IMG/VR virus record: IMGVR_UViG_3300046538_000306 | Location: 1-31,437 of that record | DNA: 31,437 nucleotides | Direction: 5' to 3' (one strand) | DNA from: a virus | In this document: positions 1-8,084 of the stretch, in pieces | How the letters are laid out: each line of letters opens with the position of its first letter | How positions within the stretch are numbered: the stretch's first letter is position 1 | The notes under the pieces: model-generated | Database searches by the model: none | Told to the model about the DNA's origin: nothing | The model's input: only the letters and a program-made list of their open reading frames with translations | Position numbers and translations under genes: made by a program

Positions 1-1614
1 GTGGGTAGTGTGCCTAAGGTTTTCAGTTACCTGCGATTTTCAGATCCTCGGCAGTCGAGCGGTAGCAGTGCCGATCGGCAGTTGCAATACGCTCAGAAAT
101 GGGCAGTTGAAAAAGGCTTAGCCCTAGACGATTCTCTCTCTATGCGCGACGAGGGTCTGTCGGCATATCACCAACGGCACGTAACCCAAGGAGCTTTGGG
201 TGTCTTCCTTCGAGCTATAGAGGACGGCCGTATCGCTTCAGGCTCAGTCTTGGTCGTAGAAGGGTTGGACCGCCTAAGCCGTGCTGAACCTATCCAGGCG
301 CAAGCTCAGCTCGCTCAGATTATCAATGCCGGCATTACGGTCGTAACCGCCAGTGATGGAAGGGAGTACAACCGGGCCAGTTTGAAGGCTCAGCCAATGG
401 ACCTGGTCTATTCGCTCTTGGTCATGATCCGTGCCCATGAGGAATCAGACACGAAGAGTAAGCGAGTAAAAGCTTCGATCCGCAGATTGTGTGAAGCGTG
501 GCAGGCCGGCACCTATCGAGGCCAGATCCGAAACGGCAAAGACCCACTATGGCTTAGATGGACGGGCACTGGTTGGGAATTAATCCCGGAGCGGGTTAAT
601 ACCGTGCGCCGTGCCCTGGAGCTGTACTTGCAGGGAATGGGTGCTGCTCGAGCGGTCCGCATTCTGCACGATGAGGGGTTGAGCTACAGCGATGTAGGGA
701 TCACAGCTCTGCAGATCTACCGGCTGATCAAGCTCCAGGCCCTGCGAGGCGCCAAAAGCTTAAGCGTCAATGGTGAGGAATACATCCTGGAGGACTATTA
801 CCCCCGCCTGTTGTCGGAAACCGAATGGGCCGAACTGCAACACATGGGTGGGCAACGTTTACGCCGACGCATGAAGGGAGAAATCCCAGGGATTATCACT
901 GGCATCGGTCTTACCTATTGCGGGTACTGCGGTACCGCCGTTGTTGGGCAGAACTATATGAGCCGTGCTCGGGCAGACGGAACTCTTGCCGATGGCCATC
1001 GGCGTTTGCATTGCGTTTCATATAGCCGGAATGAGGGCTGTGGATCCGGTGGTTCATGTAGCGTCGTACCGATTGAGAAGGCTCTTCTCAACTTTTGCTC
1101 TGATCAGCTCAACCTGCAGCGTTTAATGCAGGTTAGGGACGACGGGCAAGGTCTCCGCAAACAACTGGCAGCCGCTAGGGCGGCCGTGCAGAAAATCACG
1201 GAGCAGCTGGGTAGGGTGACCGATGCACTGCTCGCTGATGATGACGGCCCGGCCCCCATCTCTTTTGTACGCAAAGCTCGCGAGCTTGAAGCAGAACTGA
1301 TCGACGCTGAAAAGAAAGTGGTGGCCGTCGAGCACCAGCTAGCTACAGCGGCCGGATCTGGCAAGCCAGCACAGGCGGAGCAGTGGGCCGAACTGGCCGC
1401 CCTGGTCGCGGCAGGTGATTACGGCGCCCGGGAAAAGGTGCGCCAGCTGGTTATGGATACCTTTGAGCGCATTGTTGTGTATATGCGCGGGATGGGGGAC
1501 GAGGACCGTAAACACAAATTCATCGACGTGCAGTTGCTTTCTCGCACTGGGCAGCACCGGCTCATGCAGATCAACCGTAAATCTGGCGAGTGGGTGGCCA
1601 GTGAAGACTGGTGA
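1..1614 (+). CDS. Large serine recombinase (candidate prophage integrase)
   Basis: Site-specific recombinase of the large serine family, which cuts and rejoins att sites through a 5'-phosphoserine link. The N-terminal catalytic domain shows Y10-L-R12-F-S14, with S14 the likely nucleophile, and the GLDRLSR block at 88-94 with its conserved arginines. A recombinase domain follows (about 170-290), then a zinc ribbon with C307-x2-C310 and further cysteines at 338, 347 and 353, then a predicted coiled coil (about 380-455) and a C-terminal tail. At 537 residues it has the normal length for the family. The GTG at base 1 is the first codon of the window, so the real start could lie upstream; a second GTG is at base 10. 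It sits at one end of the prophage pointing inward, as an integrase next to attL would. HP1/P2-type phages normally carry a tyrosine integrase, so this is a module swap. The attachment site is not visible. Confidence 0.88.
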   Translation: MGSVPKVFSYLRFSDPRQSSGSSADRQLQYAQKWAVEKGLALDDSLSMRDEGLSAYHQRHVTQGALGVFLRAIEDGRIASGSVLVVEGLDRLSRAEPIQAQAQLAQIINAGITVVTASDGREYNRASLKAQPMDLVYSLLVMIRAHEESDTKSKRVKASIRRLCEAWQAGTYRGQIRNGKDPLWLRWTGTGWELIPERVNTVRRALELYLQGMGAARAVRILHDEGLSYSDVGITALQIYRLIKLQALRGAKSLSVNGEEYILEDYYPRLLSETEWAELQHMGGQRLRRRMKGEIPGIITGIGLTYCGYCGTAVVGQNYMSRARADGTLADGHRRLHCVSYSRNEGCGSGGSCSVVPIEKALLNFCSDQLNLQRLMQVRDDGQGLRKQLAAARAAVQKITEQLGRVTDALLADDDGPAPISFVRKARELEAELIDAEKKVVAVEHQLATAAGSGKPAQAEQWAELAALVAAGDYGAREKVRQLVMDTFERIVVYMRGMGDEDRKHKFIDVQLLSRTGQHRLMQINRKSGEWVASEDW

Positions 1615-1643
1615 TGATGGCTTGCGGCCATAAGCAATGTGAA

Positions 1644-1663
1644 TATACTGTACGTTCATACAG
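1644..1663 (+). promoter_or_regulatory. LexA (SOS) box overlapping a -10 element
   Basis: Bases 1648-1663 read CTGTACGTTCATACAG, a perfect CTG-N10-CAG LexA site with mostly matching AT-rich inner bases. It overlaps TATACT (1644-1649), a good -10 element, with a weak -35 (TTGCGG, 1622-1627) 16 bases upstream. Overlap of box and -10 is the usual arrangement for LexA repression. The next gene starts 18 bases downstream behind a strong AAGGAG, so this should be its SOS-controlled promoter. Confidence 0.8.
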
Positions 1664-1681
1664 TGATGGCAAGGAGCCCTC

Positions 1682-1945
1682 ATGCTGCACGTCCCACCCG
1701 TCGGTATTACTCACCAGGTGTTCACTTCGTATCAAGAGCTGATGCGCCGCATTCACAGGCAGATCAACAGCTCAGCCGCTCAGCTCAGGCGACAGACCGT
1801 TATAGTGCGCCAGTCGGACGAAAGCGAGGATGATTGGGAAGCTTTCTTGGATCAGTTGGACATCGACGAAAGTGTGAGGGTAACCCGTCTTGAAGGTGGA
1901 TTAGCTAGGCTCACCTGGACAAACCAGCACCCGTCTAACATCTAA
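1682..1945 (+). CDS. DUF1654 family protein, SOS-controlled
   Basis: Small 87-residue protein. The block from RRIHRQINS (about 22-30) through the acidic DDWEAFLDQL segment (about 50-59) to LEGGLARLTW (about 70-79) matches what I know of DUF1654, a Pseudomonas and prophage family of unknown function. The start follows AAGGAG (1671-1676) at good spacing. A LexA box sits directly upstream, so expression is expected after DNA damage. It lies alone between the recombinase and the operator-controlled operon. By analogy with phage 186 tum, also LexA-controlled, it could help prophage induction, for example as an antirepressor, but nothing in the sequence itself shows that. The family call is fairly firm; the role is a guess. 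Confidence 0.75.
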   Translation: MLHVPPVGITHQVFTSYQELMRRIHRQINSSAAQLRRQTVIVRQSDESEDDWEAFLDQLDIDESVRVTRLEGGLARLTWTNQHPSNI

Positions 1946-1969: not shown

Positions 1970-2009
1970 GATACCTGCGGTATTGAATAAATACGTTACC
2001 TGCGGTTAA
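1970..2009. promoter_or_regulatory. Two CI/Cro-type operator candidates
   Basis: Two copies of an inverted-repeat motif: GATACC-TGC-GGTATT at 1970-1984 and GTTACC-TGC-GGTTAA at 1995-2009. The same pattern, (G/A)(T)(A/T)ACC-N3-GGT(A/T)A(C), recurs between the divergent cI and cro genes 3.2 kb away, including the near-identical core ATACCTGCGGTAT. They lie 55-95 bases before the gene at 2065 and so probably let the prophage repressor control that operon. A -35-like TTGACT occurs at 1951-1956, but no convincing matched -10 was found. Confidence 0.65.
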
Positions 2010-2064: not shown

Positions 2065-2619
2065 ATGCAGGTTTTCACCCTCTCTTCAGAAGCCCGGCAG
2101 ACGTTAGCCGGGCAGATCGCCAGAAATGGTCACTTTTCCCATCACCTTGGCACCGACCATACCGAGGGCCAAGGCCCAAAGCATTGGCTAATCGTAAACC
2201 TCGACATCGAGCAATGCGGTGCCGACGTTTCAGTGCGTGTTCAGATGCGGGGAACTATTAACTCGCTGACCATCCCTCAGAGCACGCACGCTGCTTCTCG
2301 TATTGCCTCGTTCCTTGAAGAATTAGCGAACGGAGACGCACCGGAGGCCCCCCATTGCCTTAGGAATACGATGGAGTCGATTCTCTGGAACGCGATCTGC
2401 CAGCGGCAGGGTGTCTATTCCCTATCGGCGTCCGGTGTCGACGATTTGGGGATTTCGCTTTCTCCGGCCACTCGTCCAGGACGGGTGATTTTTCGATTTG
2501 AAATGAGCGGCATGGGTTTGACGCTGCCACTCCTCTTACCAAATGATCAAGAGCAGGCGCTTGAGTTGCTTTCCGGTTGTGTGCAGGAACTCGTCGCCAA
2601 TTATCGCGGTGCCGTTTAA
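2065..2619 (+). CDS. Hypothetical protein, first gene of an operator-controlled operon
   Basis: A 184-residue soluble protein that I do not recognise. It has no signal peptide or membrane segment and looks mixed alpha/beta. There are three cysteines, at least two of them isolated (NLDIEQCGADV and the C-terminal LLSGCVQEL), and no obvious metal site. The ATG is preceded by GGAGG (2053-2057), a good ribosome site. It lies just behind two operator-like repeats shared with the cI-cro region and begins a tightly packed run of five genes in the same direction, so repression in the lysogen and expression on induction is a reasonable inference. No function is proposed. Confidence 0.6.
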   Translation: MQVFTLSSEARQTLAGQIARNGHFSHHLGTDHTEGQGPKHWLIVNLDIEQCGADVSVRVQMRGTINSLTIPQSTHAASRIASFLEELANGDAPEAPHCLRNTMESILWNAICQRQGVYSLSASGVDDLGISLSPATRPGRVIFRFEMSGMGLTLPLLLPNDQEQALELLSGCVQELVANYRGAV

Positions 2620-2628
2620 GGGATGTTT

Positions 2629-2883
2629 ATGAACACCTCTCAGTACCTCGTAATTCTAGGCGGAATGGCAGCATGTCAGATCATCGCCATGGCGTTGCCC
2701 TACTGGATGGGACTACAGGCTGGACGCACATCGCTGGCTCTACTGCAGGGCGAGATCGAGCAGTTGCGACAGCAACTGTCGGTGAGGAACGAAGTCGTTG
2801 CGGTCTTTGACGTTGAGGGCACCTACTCCGAGGGCGACGCCGCCCTGATTAAGCAAAATTCTCAAGGAGTGAGCTATGTCTAA
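2629..2883 (+). CDS. Small membrane-anchored coiled-coil protein
   Basis: An 84-residue protein I do not recognise. Residues about 5-28 form one hydrophobic helix (YLVILGGMAACQIIAMALPY), followed by a short predicted coiled coil (LLQGEIEQLRQQLSV) and an acidic tail. The ATG at 2629 is preferred over the one at 2623 because the AAGGGA at 2618-2623 is correctly spaced only for the later one. The 3' end overlaps the next gene by 8 bases, which suggests translational coupling and perhaps a shared membrane complex with it. Confidence 0.6.
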   Translation: MNTSQYLVILGGMAACQIIAMALPYWMGLQAGRTSLALLQGEIEQLRQQLSVRNEVVAVFDVEGTYSEGDAALIKQNSQGVSYV

Positions 2884-3883
2884 GGACATCATTAACCAGC
2901 GTTCGCGTTCGGTATTGCTTGTCATTGCCTTATCGCTATCCAGCGTTACTGCGTTATCGGTTGGCATGACTATGTCAGCTTTGATCAGCGACCCGTTATT
3001 GGCGGTTGTTTTTGCAGCTGCTGCTGTGCTCCTGGATTTATATAAGTATCTGGCCTGGCCAATAGCATTGGGCATGCTGGCCGGAGGCAAACGTGCCTAC
3101 GCCGTAATGATGATCGTCTCGGCTCTGATCCTCGGCACAGTTTCTGCCTGGGCCACTTATGACAGATTGCTGACTTCGATCGTCTCGGGCCAGACGCGTC
3201 ACCAGGCTATCAGTGAGCAGCGGGTTGTCGATTTGCAAGCTGTCAGGGTGGATGGGTTGCGCCAGTTAGAAGCGCTTGATAATGAAGCTCGCTCGATCGG
3301 CGAACAGGCGCGGCAATTGCGCGATCGTGGCATCGTAAGCAAAGCTCAGGAACTGGAAGCAACCGCACTGTCGCGCATTGCTGGCCAGCGCGAACAGGTG
3401 CTGCAAAGGCTCGATAAGGCTTCTGTCGAGCTGACAGAGCTCCGGTCAAGGCCTGTAACCTCAGCGGGATTATCAGAGTTGCTGGCGATATTGTTATGCG
3501 CTGGTTTCGCTGTCGCTCTTGAGGCGGTACCAGCCCTCATTGGATCCGCAATTCGGATGGGTGGGATGTCCGAACGCCCGTTGCTCACTGCCTCCTCTGC
3601 GGAAGCCAAAGTCCTGGCAACAGCAACAGCTGTTGTTGAGCCAATAACAGTCCAAGCGACGCCAGCACCAGGCGAGCAACAAGATCTGTTCGGATCACCT
3701 GATGGCGCGCTTATGCAGACCTTACTTGGCATCACACGGGCAACAGCTCCAGGTACGCCAATATCTCTACGCGACTTCACAGCAGCTGCAAAGGTGGGTA
3801 ATCGAAGAGCGATGAAGCTATTCCGGACAGCGCTCGATCTCGGCGAACTTAGAAAAACTACAGCTGGCTATGTTACGGCTTAA
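2876..3883 (+). CDS. Four-helix membrane protein with C-terminal winged-helix-like domain
   Basis: A 335-residue protein of unknown function. Hydrophobic segments lie at about 12-34, 41-63, 75-93 and 199-223. A long charged predicted coiled coil (about 100-193) sits between helices 3 and 4. A Pro/Ala-rich linker (about 240-270) leads to residues 275-335, whose pattern (ISLRDFTAAAKVGNRRAMKLF, then LGELRKTTAGYV) looks like a winged helix-turn-helix. Positive residues at GGKR (70-73) and after helix 4 predict N- and C-termini in the cytoplasm and the coiled coil in the periplasm. That is a layout for a membrane-tethered DNA-binding or replication-anchoring protein. The ATG follows AAGGAG. The gene overlaps its upstream neighbour by 8 bases. 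The winged-helix call is by eye. Confidence 0.65.
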   Translation: MSKDIINQRSRSVLLVIALSLSSVTALSVGMTMSALISDPLLAVVFAAAAVLLDLYKYLAWPIALGMLAGGKRAYAVMMIVSALILGTVSAWATYDRLLTSIVSGQTRHQAISEQRVVDLQAVRVDGLRQLEALDNEARSIGEQARQLRDRGIVSKAQELEATALSRIAGQREQVLQRLDKASVELTELRSRPVTSAGLSELLAILLCAGFAVALEAVPALIGSAIRMGGMSERPLLTASSAEAKVLATATAVVEPITVQATPAPGEQQDLFGSPDGALMQTLLGITRATAPGTPISLRDFTAAAKVGNRRAMKLFRTALDLGELRKTTAGYVTA

Positions 3884-3895
3884 GGAGAAGCGACT

Positions 3896-4117
3896 ATGAC
3901 AATTACCATCACTATTTCAGAGCAAGATTCGCGGCTTCTTAACTCAAGCATTGTTGGCTACAGAAGCGCAAACGCTGACATGGACAACGCGATTGAGTCC
4001 GAAAATTGGTGCGCAATTAACACGGCCCAAGACAATCGCTCGCTACACGCCAATACCATTGCGTTGATCATAAATAAACATACAGATGCGGTCGCAGAAC
4101 AAGGGGCAAGGGCATGA
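3896..4117 (+). CDS. Small hypothetical protein
   Basis: A 73-residue protein, not recognised. It is predicted mostly helical after a short beta-like start (MTITITISEQDSRLL) and has no membrane segment. The ATG follows TAAGGAG with good spacing, 12 bases after the membrane protein gene. Its stop overlaps the next start (ATGA), so the two are probably translated together. It is a member of the operator-controlled operon. Confidence 0.55.
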   Translation: MTITITISEQDSRLLNSSIVGYRSANADMDNAIESENWCAINTAQDNRSLHANTIALIINKHTDAVAEQGARA

Positions 4118-4383
4118 TTGGTATTCCGAAGACGGGGACACTCGAAAACGGTCGCATCGCTGCCAATGTGACCAGCGGCTATAAGATCACGACTGCTGAC
4201 GGCCGGCCTGCACGACTGGCGATCATCGACGACGAAGGTAATGTCGTTGACTCTGGGGACGCGGTGGCCCGAGAAACGTGGAATGTATGTATCGCTGTGA
4301 TCAAGAATTTTAAGATAGGGCAGGGGCATATCGTGGTTCATAGTGCGCCACCAGGGTTGGTGACGCATGATAAGTCGAAATAG
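4114..4383 (+). CDS. Small hypothetical protein, last gene of the operon
   Basis: An 89-residue protein, not recognised, apparently beta-rich and soluble (GYKITTADGRPARLAIIDDEGNVVD). Its start overlaps the preceding stop by 4 bases. It ends 72 bases before the stop of the convergent cI gene. The gap holds only a weak AT-rich inverted repeat (near 4398-4411), so no clear terminator separates the two converging transcripts. Confidence 0.55.
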   Translation: MIGIPKTGTLENGRIAANVTSGYKITTADGRPARLAIIDDEGNVVDSGDAVARETWNVCIAVIKNFKIGQGHIVVHSAPPGLVTHDKSK

Positions 4384-4455: not shown

Positions 4456-5175
4456 CTACATACCGGTAACTTTTGCATCAATTGCCCGGCCGATGATTTC
4501 CCAGCTTTCATCCAGCACCACAGGTTGGTAGCTGGGGTTCAGCGGTACCAAGTAGGCGACCCCTGTGTCTAACACATATTGTTTGAACGTGGTTTCTTCA
4601 GTTTCTGCGTTGTAAGCGACGTAGAACTTTCCGCTGACCAGGTCGAAACCTTCAGGCCGAATCAGAATCGGTGTCCCTTCCGGGAAGGTTGGGGTGGAGT
4701 GGGATGTCATTGACGTACCCTTGACCTCCAACCAGTAACCTTTAGGCCCCGCATTTTCAGTAGAGCTAAGCCATACATCTGCAATCCCAGTCGGGTAACT
4801 GGCAGATGATTGAACCCCACGCCCCGCATCAACCCAACTTATTAAAGGGTACTCCCTTGCCTCCCTATACGGCTGAGGCATGGTCCTTACGTTCGAGTTA
4901 TCGGTAGTTGCTGAGAGATCTGCAATCACCGCAGCCAAACGCGGGCTGAATTTCTCGACTGGCTCGCCCAGGAGTTTCGCGAGCGCCGAAGCGAAATTCA
5001 CGTTCAGTGCATTCACGCCGCTCAGGTAATGCGCCACAGCAGCGGGGCTGACTCCGAGTGCATCTGCAATTTTTCGCTTATTGAGTTTCAGCTCATTTTT
5101 TTTTGAGAGGTAAAGCTCGTTGGCAGCTTGGCACTCAGCGACGAGCACTGGATCGGGAGGATTTTTCTTGGTCAT
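4456..5175 (-). CDS. cI: CI-type phage repressor with S24 self-cleavage domain
   Basis: Master repressor of lysogeny, 239 residues, LexA/lambda-CI architecture. An N-terminal helix-turn-helix is at about 33-57 (KIADALGVSPAAVAHYLSG). The C-terminal S24 peptidase domain has the Ala117-Gly118 cleavage dipeptide (SWVDAGRG), catalytic S155 (GTSMTS) and K198 (TTFKQY). All three elements are intact, so RecA-stimulated self-cleavage after DNA damage is expected. The ATG at 5175 is chosen over the longer reading from 5295, because the extra 40 codons would run through the operators and lack repressor-like sequence. No strong Shine-Dalgarno precedes it. It faces cro across about 150 bases packed with inverted repeats, one of which lies 13 bases before its start and could mediate autoregulation. 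Confidence 0.92.
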   Translation of the reverse strand: MTKKNPPDPVLVAECQAANELYLSKKNELKLNKRKIADALGVSPAAVAHYLSGVNALNVNFASALAKLLGEPVEKFSPRLAAVIADLSATTDNSNVRTMPQPYREAREYPLISWVDAGRGVQSSASYPTGIADVWLSSTENAGPKGYWLEVKGTSMTSHSTPTFPEGTPILIRPEGFDLVSGKFYVAYNAETEETTFKQYVLDTGVAYLVPLNPSYQPVVLDESWEIIGRAIDAKVTGM

Positions 5176-5323: not shown

Positions 5324-5548
5324 ATGAACCAAATCCAATTGCCCGATCTGGTCGCAAAGATCGGTCAGGCAACGGTTGCTGAGGCATTTGGCATTACCCC
5401 AGCAGCTGTCCATAAAGCTGTGCGATCCGGTCGGAATATCATCGTCACATTGCATGAGGACGGCAGTTATTCAGCGCAGGAATTGAGGCCATTCCCGCAT
5501 CACAAGCCGAGCACTGACGTGCAGCCTAAGTGCGGTACGTTGGTATGA
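5324..5548 (+). CDS. cro: Cro-family repressor
   Basis: A 74-residue Cro-type DNA-binding protein that opposes CI in the lysis-lysogeny switch. The layout matches lambda Cro: a helix-turn-helix at about 14-36 (QATVAEAFGITPAAVHKAVRS), then the beta-hairpin RNIIVTLHEDGSYSAQELRPFP, close to Cro's own [22 protein letters not shown]. The ATG at 5324 gives the right length; an in-frame ATG at 5267 would extend the protein into the operators. Its stop overlaps the next start (ATGA at 5545), so it heads an operon with the two genes that follow. Confidence 0.88.
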   Translation: MNQIQLPDLVAKIGQATVAEAFGITPAAVHKAVRSGRNIIVTLHEDGSYSAQELRPFPHHKPSTDVQPKCGTLV

Positions 5549-6165
5549 ACACGTCTAATCCAAGACAGCCCACCATCTCTCGCGACCAGGTCCTAGTCGC
5601 TCACGCTGCCGAGATGATCGCTCGCACTGGTTTCAGCCAGGACGACTTCGCCCAGGCGCTCAGCAAGAACCTTCACCAGCAGATTCCGGAAAAGGCCGTG
5701 AGCAAGGACGTGCCAGATTTCGATCAACTGTCGGGCACCAACGATACCGCGGCATTTATCAAAGCCTCCGGCGCCTGGTTGCGCCGTGTTTGCCGCTGGC
5801 TCAGCGGGGAAGTGGATCTGCCGTGCTGGATCGAGGAAGCGTGGGTAGACGCGCTCAGTGATGACTTCCATGAACGCTGTGTCAACGAGTTGGCCAGCCG
5901 GCACGGACTCACCGGCGCCCGTGCGCTCCAGGGCGATGCCAACCCCGTAGGTGTGTTCGGCTCATTGGTGGCCCGACTGGGTAATACCGTTGCCCTGGGA
6001 AGCGAGATCCTGGCTGACGGTCGCATCGACATTGATGACCTGCAGCAGCTGCCCGAGTTCGTCGACCGCCTACGGTCGGTAGAGGCGCGCTGCAGTGAAC
6101 TGCGATCGCGTGCCGAGGATGTGCTCGACCGAGCGGAAAGACCCGTTTTGCACCAGGTGAACTAG
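5545..6165 (+). CDS. Putative early regulatory protein (CII-like position)
   Basis: A 206-residue soluble protein encoded directly after cro. It starts with a possible DNA-binding helical region (ISRDQVLVAHAAEMIARTGFSQDDFAQAL), has a middle part with several Trp residues, and ends in a helical domain (GVFGSLVARLGNTVALGSEILADGRIDIDDLQQLPEFVDRLR). The C-terminal part is reminiscent of proteins annotated as phage regulatory CII-like in proteobacterial prophages, but I cannot confirm that. The position cro-X-replication gene suits a CII or replication-accessory role. It is coupled to cro by a 4-base overlap and is followed after five bases by the putative initiator. Confidence 0.6.
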   Translation: MNTSNPRQPTISRDQVLVAHAAEMIARTGFSQDDFAQALSKNLHQQIPEKAVSKDVPDFDQLSGTNDTAAFIKASGAWLRRVCRWLSGEVDLPCWIEEAWVDALSDDFHERCVNELASRHGLTGARALQGDANPVGVFGSLVARLGNTVALGSEILADGRIDIDDLQQLPEFVDRLRSVEARCSELRSRAEDVLDRAERPVLHQVN

Positions 6166-6170
6166 CGCAA

Positions 6171-7073
6171 GTGACTTCCCTGGATAAGGACATCCCGCCG
6201 CGAAATAATCGCAAGGCCGGCCCCGCAAAGGGTCGGCCTACTGCTGTCGACAAGAAAAAGCCACATGCCGGCTTATACGCGCCGATCCGCCCGGATCGGT
6301 ACCGCGAGAAACGCTCCCTAAGCGCTGATCAGCGCAAGAATCCGCTGCTGCGCATGGCCTACCATCGCTTGAGCCAGATCGGCGAGTTGCGCGGTAAGTA
6401 CTTGCGAGAGCTGGACACCATTCACGGAGGCCGGCGCACCAGGTCCGAAAAATTTGCGGCGCTGGCCAGGTCATCCGAACAAATGCTGCTACGCATGGAT
6501 CTGGCCACGGGCGTGCTGGGCTGGCTCGACGTAGAACGTGGCCAGTACTTTTTGAACACGCAGTGCAACATCGCAGAGGACTGCGGCATGTCCCCCTCGT
6601 CGTTCAATCGACTCCTCCACAGCATGCAATTGGCTGACTACGTGTATCTGCGCACGGAGCGGGTCAGGCTGGAGGAAAAGGACGAGGCGGGACTCAATCT
6701 GGTGCGCACCCGTGTCCTGGTAAGGTTCACTGAGAAGTTCTTCGCGGACCTTGGCGTGCGGTGGCTTTGGCATCGAGCGAAGAAGGCTGCGATCAAGAAG
6801 CGTGAACGTGAACTGCGCCAGATCGGCGACATGCGCGTTGCGCGCCAGGAGCGGGCTTCGTTAGAAGAGTTGCGCCGGCAGGAGTCTCGAGCCAATTGGG
6901 AGCGTAGCCAACGGCGGGAGACAGCCCACAGCCAGTTACAAGCTGTCAATGTTCATGAAGGCAGGCACGGGCATCCAGAGCCGCCCAGAGAGCCTGACAG
7001 AGGCCCTATGACGCCCGACCAGCTCATGGCCAGCGTCCTGGCTAAAAACGGCAAGACACCCCCCTCGAAATAA
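6171..7073 (+). CDS. RepA-like putative replication initiator
   Basis: A 300-residue basic protein starting at GTG (6171), five bases after the previous stop. A disordered basic N-terminus leads to a folded core (about 60-200) with a winged-helix-like unit (about 133-165, NIAEDCGMSPSSFNRLLHSMQLADYVYL). A strand-rich RTRVLVRFTEKFFADLGV segment follows, then a long arginine/lysine-rich helix (198-250). The order, with a short DxxxxxVxxG-type strand, helix-turn-helix, beta wing, 'F-x-x-x-F-F-x-x-L-x-V' and a basic helix, resembles IncFII-family plasmid RepA proteins. The P2/HP1 rolling-circle initiator with paired tyrosines is absent from the window, so this gene probably fills that role. The homology call is by eye and uncertain; a transcription regulator is the main alternative. 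Confidence 0.55.
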   Translation: MTSLDKDIPPRNNRKAGPAKGRPTAVDKKKPHAGLYAPIRPDRYREKRSLSADQRKNPLLRMAYHRLSQIGELRGKYLRELDTIHGGRRTRSEKFAALARSSEQMLLRMDLATGVLGWLDVERGQYFLNTQCNIAEDCGMSPSSFNRLLHSMQLADYVYLRTERVRLEEKDEAGLNLVRTRVLVRFTEKFFADLGVRWLWHRAKKAAIKKRERELRQIGDMRVARQERASLEELRRQESRANWERSQRRETAHSQLQAVNVHEGRHGHPEPPREPDRGPMTPDQLMASVLAKNGKTPPSK

Positions 7074-7741: not shown

Positions 7742-8002
7742 TTATGCGACGGCTTGTTTCCCCAACTGGTCGAACAGTTCGCGCTGTTGAGCCGGCGGCA
7801 GATCTCGCAGGCGATCGAACAGCAACACGTCCAGTTGCTGCGCCGATGGTCTGAGCGTGTGCGAGAACGTGAGGTTTGCGACCCAGGTATGGCCGCATTT
7901 TGCGTCCAGGCACTGGCAATATAGTTTCACGAACGCCTTGGTCAGTTCTTCCCGCGAACTGATTCTTCCTTTGCTTCCACATGTCGTGCAGTAGATCCGC
8001 AT
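7742..8002 (-). CDS. ogr: Ogr/Delta-type late gene activator
   Basis: An 86-residue zinc-binding transcription activator. The cysteine pattern C5-x2-C8-x22-C31-x4-C36, followed by G-H-T-W, is exactly the Ogr/Delta signature of P2-like phages. These proteins bind TGT-N12-ACA sites and recruit the RNA polymerase alpha subunit to late promoters. The C-terminal half (LRPSAQQLDVLLFDRLRDLPPAQQRELFDQL) is longer and more helical than in P2 Ogr. The ATG follows a strong GGGAGGGAG. It sits downstream of the portal gene on the same strand, with a LexA-like box about 70 bases upstream, so it may respond to SOS as well as being co-transcribed with portal. Confidence 0.85.
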   Translation of the reverse strand: MRIYCTTCGSKGRISSREELTKAFVKLYCQCLDAKCGHTWVANLTFSHTLRPSAQQLDVLLFDRLRDLPPAQQRELFDQLGKQAVA

Positions 8003-8068: not shown

Positions 8069-8084
8069 TTGTATGTTTATACAG
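8069..8084 (-). promoter_or_regulatory. LexA-like box upstream of the late activator
   Basis: On the minus strand the bases read CTGTATAAACATACAA, one base short of a perfect CTG-N10-CAG LexA site and with AT-rich inner bases close to consensus. It overlaps the portal stop codon and lies 67-82 bases upstream of the Ogr-type start codon. The inner TATAAA could double as a -10, though no good -35 is paired with it. It also adjoins a short repeat, AGTTG-AAA-CAACT. Binding would place the late activator under LexA. Confidence 0.5.

Follow-up and report, generated by a model that had tools for sequence, protein, structure and literature searches.

What does a small gene do that stands beside the integrase of a prophage, under a site for the SOS repressor LexA? 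The question is raised by the DUF1654 gene of IMG/VR record IMGVR_UViG_3300046538_000306, a stretch of 31,437 bases (the window) that looks like a P2-like prophage from a Pseudomonas relative. The preliminary description had rightly placed the gene next to the integrase and under a perfect LexA box, and had called DUF1654 a family without known function, in agreement with the literature searched, which names it only as unknown. It went on to propose an induction factor like Tum of phage 186. Comparison across hosts and phages strongly supports LexA control of the DUF1654 family, the window gene included, and the protein is probably a general helper in the DNA-damage response rather than a private trigger of this phage.

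Evidence for LexA control across the DUF1654 family

A total of 258 distinct DUF1654 genes were gathered from viral contigs, phage records and host genomes. A box was counted when at least 7 of the 8 core bases were found within 150 bp upstream of the DUF1654 domain. The host sample was not fully random, as regions were chosen among listed matches, partly the best-scoring ones. How often DUF1654 genes carry a LexA box, a check proposed in the preliminary description, could thus be answered: 247 of the 258 have one, and it is perfect at 200. The box was present at all 89 genes from the host genus (Pseudomonas), 22/29 from other Pseudomonadaceae (several of the exceptions being degenerate, tandem second genes or spurious weak matches), 29/30 from Halomonadaceae, 43/44 plus 63/65 from viral contigs and phages, and the single gene of a close prophage relative. 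Its distance is nearly fixed, mostly 45-80 bp ahead of the conserved domain. Only 120 perfect boxes were counted in the initial 1.17 Mb of DNA retrieved, and about 107 of these belong to DUF1654 genes; the resulting frequency of about 0.015 per 150 bp is mostly made up of the DUF1654 boxes themselves. Alignment of the 247 promoters on the box showed TTGC at -25 to -22 and TA adjoining the box on its upstream side; a purine-rich Shine-Dalgarno region lies some 20-25 bp downstream of the box start.

In the window, CTGTACGTTCATACAG is the sole perfect CTGT-N8-ACAG. Such a site is expected 0.43 times per window, and at least one was present in 35 of 100 shuffles. Because shuffles often hold a perfect box, the site taken alone is weak evidence, and LexA control of the window gene is argued from conservation across the family. 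The looser form CTG-N10-CAG, used as evidence in the preliminary description, was rejected as uninformative (the window has 17 such sites, and 12 would be expected). In relatives the box is identical to CTGTACGTTCATACAG (L002) or reads CTGTATGTTCATACAG (L051). The gene has a promoter-overlapping CTGT-N8-ACAG conserved in relatives, as looked for in a member of the LexA (SOS) regulon. The overlap with a promoter-like sequence, also claimed earlier, was upheld in part: TTGCGG-16 bp-TATACT agrees with the pattern conserved in the 247 promoters, but a consensus scanner found no plus-strand sigma-70 site ahead of DUF1654.

One phage and one genome stand out for extra copies. Phage L009 has two DUF1654 genes of different subtypes (4882-5130 and 5977-6231), each with its own perfect LexA box. 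Genome G194 (Pseudomonadaceae) has seven matches (L154, L167, L172, L173, L174, L175 and L176), several closely paired and most with their own box.

Distribution and host loci

One draw took 150 species genomes from the host genus of the nearest relative, and PF07867, the Pfam profile of DUF1654, was found in 130 of them. It was found in 17/60 genomes of a family-level draw (which includes a few genomes of the 150-species draw), 27/121 genomes of a Halomonadaceae draw and 1/369 class-level genomes, the one being the query genome itself. None of 14 control genomes had it, and a search of plasmids gave no match. Among 20 host regions of 12 kb each, 19 had at least one of asparaginase, endonuclease I and rbsA beside DUF1654, and 11 had all three; the typical order is asparaginase, DUF1654, endonuclease I, ribose transporter. 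Because these neighbours recur, the host copies are taken to sit at a fixed place in the chromosome rather than in a prophage. Judged from its genomic settings, DUF1654 is chiefly a chromosomal SOS gene of the host that is also carried by many phages. The host of the close relative L051 has both a chromosomal and a prophage copy, each with a perfect box. In a tree of 233 domain sequences, phage and host copies were intermixed, with at least 23 phage/host changes, although sequences of 70 residues resolve poorly. The Halomonadaceae-type alignment was too divergent for scanning viral contigs.

Operon partners differ between groups. Endonuclease I (PF04231) is the next gene after DUF1654 at 48 of the 89 Pseudomonas genes, and an EEP-type nuclease at 5 more; in L144 the EndA start lies 6 bp past the DUF1654 stop. 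At 12 of the 30 Halomonadaceae genes, DUF1654 is followed by a UmuD-type S24 protein and then a UmuC-type polymerase, the stop codons mostly overlapping the next start; viral contig L008 has the same DUF1654-umuD-umuC operon. Phage copies have variable partners; what stays constant throughout the family is the protein together with its LexA box.

Two observations concern the partners themselves. In L144 (6223-6936) and similar host loci, endonuclease I lies within the apparent LexA-controlled DUF1654 transcript, which suggests SOS-induced DNase secretion in pseudomonads. At 7 of the 30 Halomonadaceae loci, a small family without a Pfam match (ITQWRKRLERRGW...) stands right after DUF1654 (members at L182:1712-1987, L190:1188-1481 and L179:1199-1483); it is probably another SOS gene.

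Protein sequence and predicted fold

The window protein matched PF07867 at 2.2e-15 (56.6 bits against the curated cut-off of 27, profile positions 1-67 of 70) and phrog_2707 at 4.6e-16, which places it in the DUF1654 family. Curated NCBIfam gave no match. Its N-terminal region is basic and its second helix strongly acidic (residues 45-62, net charge -9). The same pattern marks the family, which is small and acidic (median isoelectric point 5.0), with a strongly basic N-terminal region and one helix of mean net charge -6.3. The structure model of the window protein has the order H-H-E-H-E-E (H, helix; E, strand), with a predicted local distance difference test score (pLDDT) of 75 and a predicted template modelling score (pTM) of 0.56. 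No solved relatives were found by sequence search. Two models were searched against PDB and BFVD without a significant fold match: SepF, the CodY winged helix and Smr appeared at E > 0.1, and the best BFVD match of the second model (E 0.01) was an unnamed protein. DinI was not among the top 50 PDB fold matches of the models, whose confidence is moderate. A reading as a defence gene was dropped, as neither DUF1654 nor the five following genes had a PADLOC match.

A proposed modulator of the SOS response

From the neighbours, the charge pattern and the absence of DinI in the hosts we infer an SOS-modulating role of the DinI kind. The favoured reading, given a probability of about 0.45, is that the window gene is a phage-borne member of a family of small acidic LexA-controlled SOS proteins shared by hosts and phages, with a DinI-type job in tuning the RecA filament or self-cleavage. 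It is suggested by the small size, the acidic helix, the umuDC operons, the S24 proteins in the neighbourhood, the parallel with dinI and the lack of DinI itself (PF06183 in 0/150 genomes of the host genus, the same search being positive in E. coli). In an undamaged cell, LexA on the box would shut the DUF1654 promoter. After DNA damage, RecA filaments would form, LexA would be cleaved, and DUF1654 would be produced regardless of whether CI still holds the prophage. Comparison makes this LexA-dependent part nearly certain. The protein would then, most likely, tune the RecA filament or the RecA-driven self-cleavage of LexA, UmuD and CI. Such tuning could shift the timing of prophage induction and aid the damaged host or replicating phage DNA. 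A further possibility, somewhat less likely, is that DUF1654 forms a new and widespread class of SOS modulators without relation to DinI, acting on the RecA filament or on RecA-driven S24 self-cleavage (LexA, UmuD, phage CI). Hosts would use it to tune translesion synthesis and recovery, while several unrelated types of temperate phage would carry copies that bias their induction.

Several points weigh against a RecA modulator. The usual partner in Pseudomonas is a secreted endonuclease, which such a model leaves unexplained, and acidic helices are common among small phage proteins. The best PDB matches, none of them significant, lean to winged-helix or SepF folds and not to DinI, and the fold prediction itself is only moderate.

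The repressors found near phage DUF1654 genes bear on the earlier proposal. In the window, the expectation of a repressor with an intact self-cleavage domain was borne out: CI has the S24 domain, the A-G site and the Ser/Lys dyad. In a first set of viral loci, an S24 repressor was within reach at all but L008 and the very short L035; in a second set it was found at 44/68, the rest having none in the stretch fetched. A handful of the hits could be S24 proteins of another kind (a UmuD-like one in L221, for instance), and the queries were S24 repressors and 186 CI, which non-S24 repressors of unknown type would escape. The repressors found are of several unrelated types, all S24 self-cleaving. 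Those of the PS-1 type (L005, L009-L049) have AQMG or AQLG at the expected A-G/C-G cleavage site and keep the S24 Ser and Lys.

A Tum-like antirepressor, which would bind this phage's CI and lift it off its operators, is accordingly given little credence. It would suit a gene controlled by LexA only, outside the CI operators and inside the lysogeny region, with an order conserved in P2-like relatives and with DUF1654 near repressor genes in many phages. However, the cognate repressor of a Tum-type factor should be non-self-cleaving, and neither CI nor the other repressors found in DUF1654 phages are. A dedicated antirepressor would need to fit every one of several unrelated repressor types, while a target such as RecA or the cleavage reaction would be common to all, and so fits these phages better than any one repressor. 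Further, the family is widely chromosomal, where there is no phage repressor to target, and the host of L051 already has its own chromosomal DUF1654. No homology to 186 Tum was detected by hhalign (probability 0.2% over 16 columns), nor was DinI (PF06183) detected in the window protein by hmmscan. Of the second SOS-controlled factor proposed earlier, LexA control holds up well in comparison, and dedication to this phage's repressor finds no support. In a looser version, DUF1654 may modulate SOS or RecA and thereby shift prophage induction.

Three other explanations compete with the RecA modulator. A small winged-helix nucleic-acid binder in the SOS response, regulating or protecting DNA as a regulator or as a binder of DNA ends or single-stranded DNA, is unlikely, though less so than the other two. 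The basic N-terminal region would suit it, and among the top PDB hits of the second model are the CodY winged-helix domain (probability 0.90, TM score 0.53, root mean square deviation 3.0 over 72 columns) as well as entries of ribosomal, ESCRT-II and Stn1 proteins; yet no PDB match lies below E 0.2, the order of helices is non-canonical, and the inter-strand helix at the position of a recognition helix is strongly acidic family-wide. The frequency of nucleases behind DUF1654 in Pseudomonas, and their close spacing in L144, would fit a cytoplasmic guard or assembly factor for these secreted DNases, with the phage copies serving to blunt or exploit them. This is improbable, considering that the Halomonadaceae and most phage copies are without a nuclease, which is not among the constants of the family. 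Finally, the protein may matter little for induction, and the LexA promoter may instead read through into the operon at 2065-4383 and, where this ends, towards cI. No terminator-like site was found between 1945 and 2065 (positions 1946-2064), so that an SOS transcript could run past the likely CI operators into this CI-controlled operon, which is convergent with cI; the linkage of DUF1654 to gene 2065 is kept in seven relatives. The terminator scan was crude, however, and conservation of the DUF1654 protein reaches well past the phages with this layout, which leaves read-through with no better a chance than the Tum-like antirepressor.

Relation to known systems

Small prophage genes under LexA control have been described before. 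DinI (PF06183) is, like DUF1654, a small acidic LexA-controlled SOS protein with an acidic helix, and dinI likewise occurs on host chromosomes and under LexA control in prophages, including Gifsy (PMC3121763). DinI alters RecA filament stability (PMC2605550). The two families differ in taxonomic range and in predicted element order, and no sequence similarity was detected between them. Should DUF1654 prove to modulate RecA, the DinI problem would have been solved twice, independently.

Like the window gene, tum of 186 is a prophage gene controlled by LexA and not by CI. Tum, however, has 146 residues with a C-terminal DinI domain and is a phage gene, whereas DUF1654 is also a host core gene; 186 CI (192 residues) has no S24 domain. 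AntC of N15 and the Gifsy products GfoA and GftA are also small LexA-controlled prophage products (PMC3121763). The Gifsy antirepressors act on non-cleaved repressors (PMC3121763), whereas those found near DUF1654 belong to the self-cleaving type. Acinetobacter DdrR, compared by description, is a small DNA-damage-response protein beside a umuD-type gene (PMC7273328, PMC11332147). It is a corepressor, divergent from umuDAb in a genus without LexA, whereas DUF1654 stands first in a umuDC operon that runs in the same direction and has a LexA box in front.

The literature searched seems to contain no description of the DUF1654 family, of the LexA box at nearly all its genes or of the umuDC operons; priority is uncertain, as a P. 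putida LexA regulon study may list the host gene under a locus tag. All 14 control genomes are without DUF1654, which may explain its oversight in SOS studies of model organisms. Present in most sampled Pseudomonas species, at the head of umuDC operons in Halomonadaceae and in many temperate phages, DUF1654 is in any case a well-defined candidate member of the SOS regulon in these bacteria, with a directly testable role.

Prophage context

The features considered, all in the first 8 kb of the window, are listed in Table 1. Because the candidate CI operators sit after the DUF1654 gene and not before it, the gene, lying between the integrase and the repeats at 1973 and 1998, appears to escape CI control as far as the sequence can tell. 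The assignment of the ACCTGCGGT repeats as CI operators is likely, and further copies are found in the cI/cro intergenic region (5215, 5248 and 5281).

Table 1. Coordinates of features in the window.
Feature	Position	Strand	Remarks
Serine integrase/recombinase	1-1614	+	Resolvase and Recombinase Pfam domains; directly 5' of DUF1654
Putative promoter	1622-1649	+	-35 TTGCGG 1622-1627, 16-bp spacer, -10 TATACT 1644-1649; 8/12
LexA box CTGTACGTTCATACAG	1648-1663	.	Overlaps end of -10; 18 bp ahead of DUF1654 open reading frame
Ribosome-binding site AAGGA	1671-1675	+	Before ATG at 1682; purine-rich stretch conserved in family
DUF1654 protein, 87 residues	1682-1945	+	ATG start; PF07867, phrog_2707
Two ACCTGCGGT repeats, likely CI operators	1973-2006	+	Exact matches at 1973 and 1998; 3' of DUF1654
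Small-gene operon	2065-4383		Convergent towards cI; taken as CI-repressed
CI-type repressor	4456-5175	-	Helix-turn-helix PF01381 and S24 PF00717 (7e-19); motifs WVDAGRG, KGTSMT, TFKQ
Cro	5324-5548	+	PF09048 (1.7e-20)
Ogr/Delta	7742-8002	-	Other genes lie between Cro and Ogr

A near-LexA site, TTGTATGTTTATACAG (7/8), lies at 8069-8084, about 67 bp ahead of the ogr start, and may instead be an Ogr-type dyad. It is present in the very close relative L051 and absent from L006, and was not claimed as a second LexA site. The order of integrase and DUF1654 is conserved in the relatives L002, L051, L052, L006 and L007.
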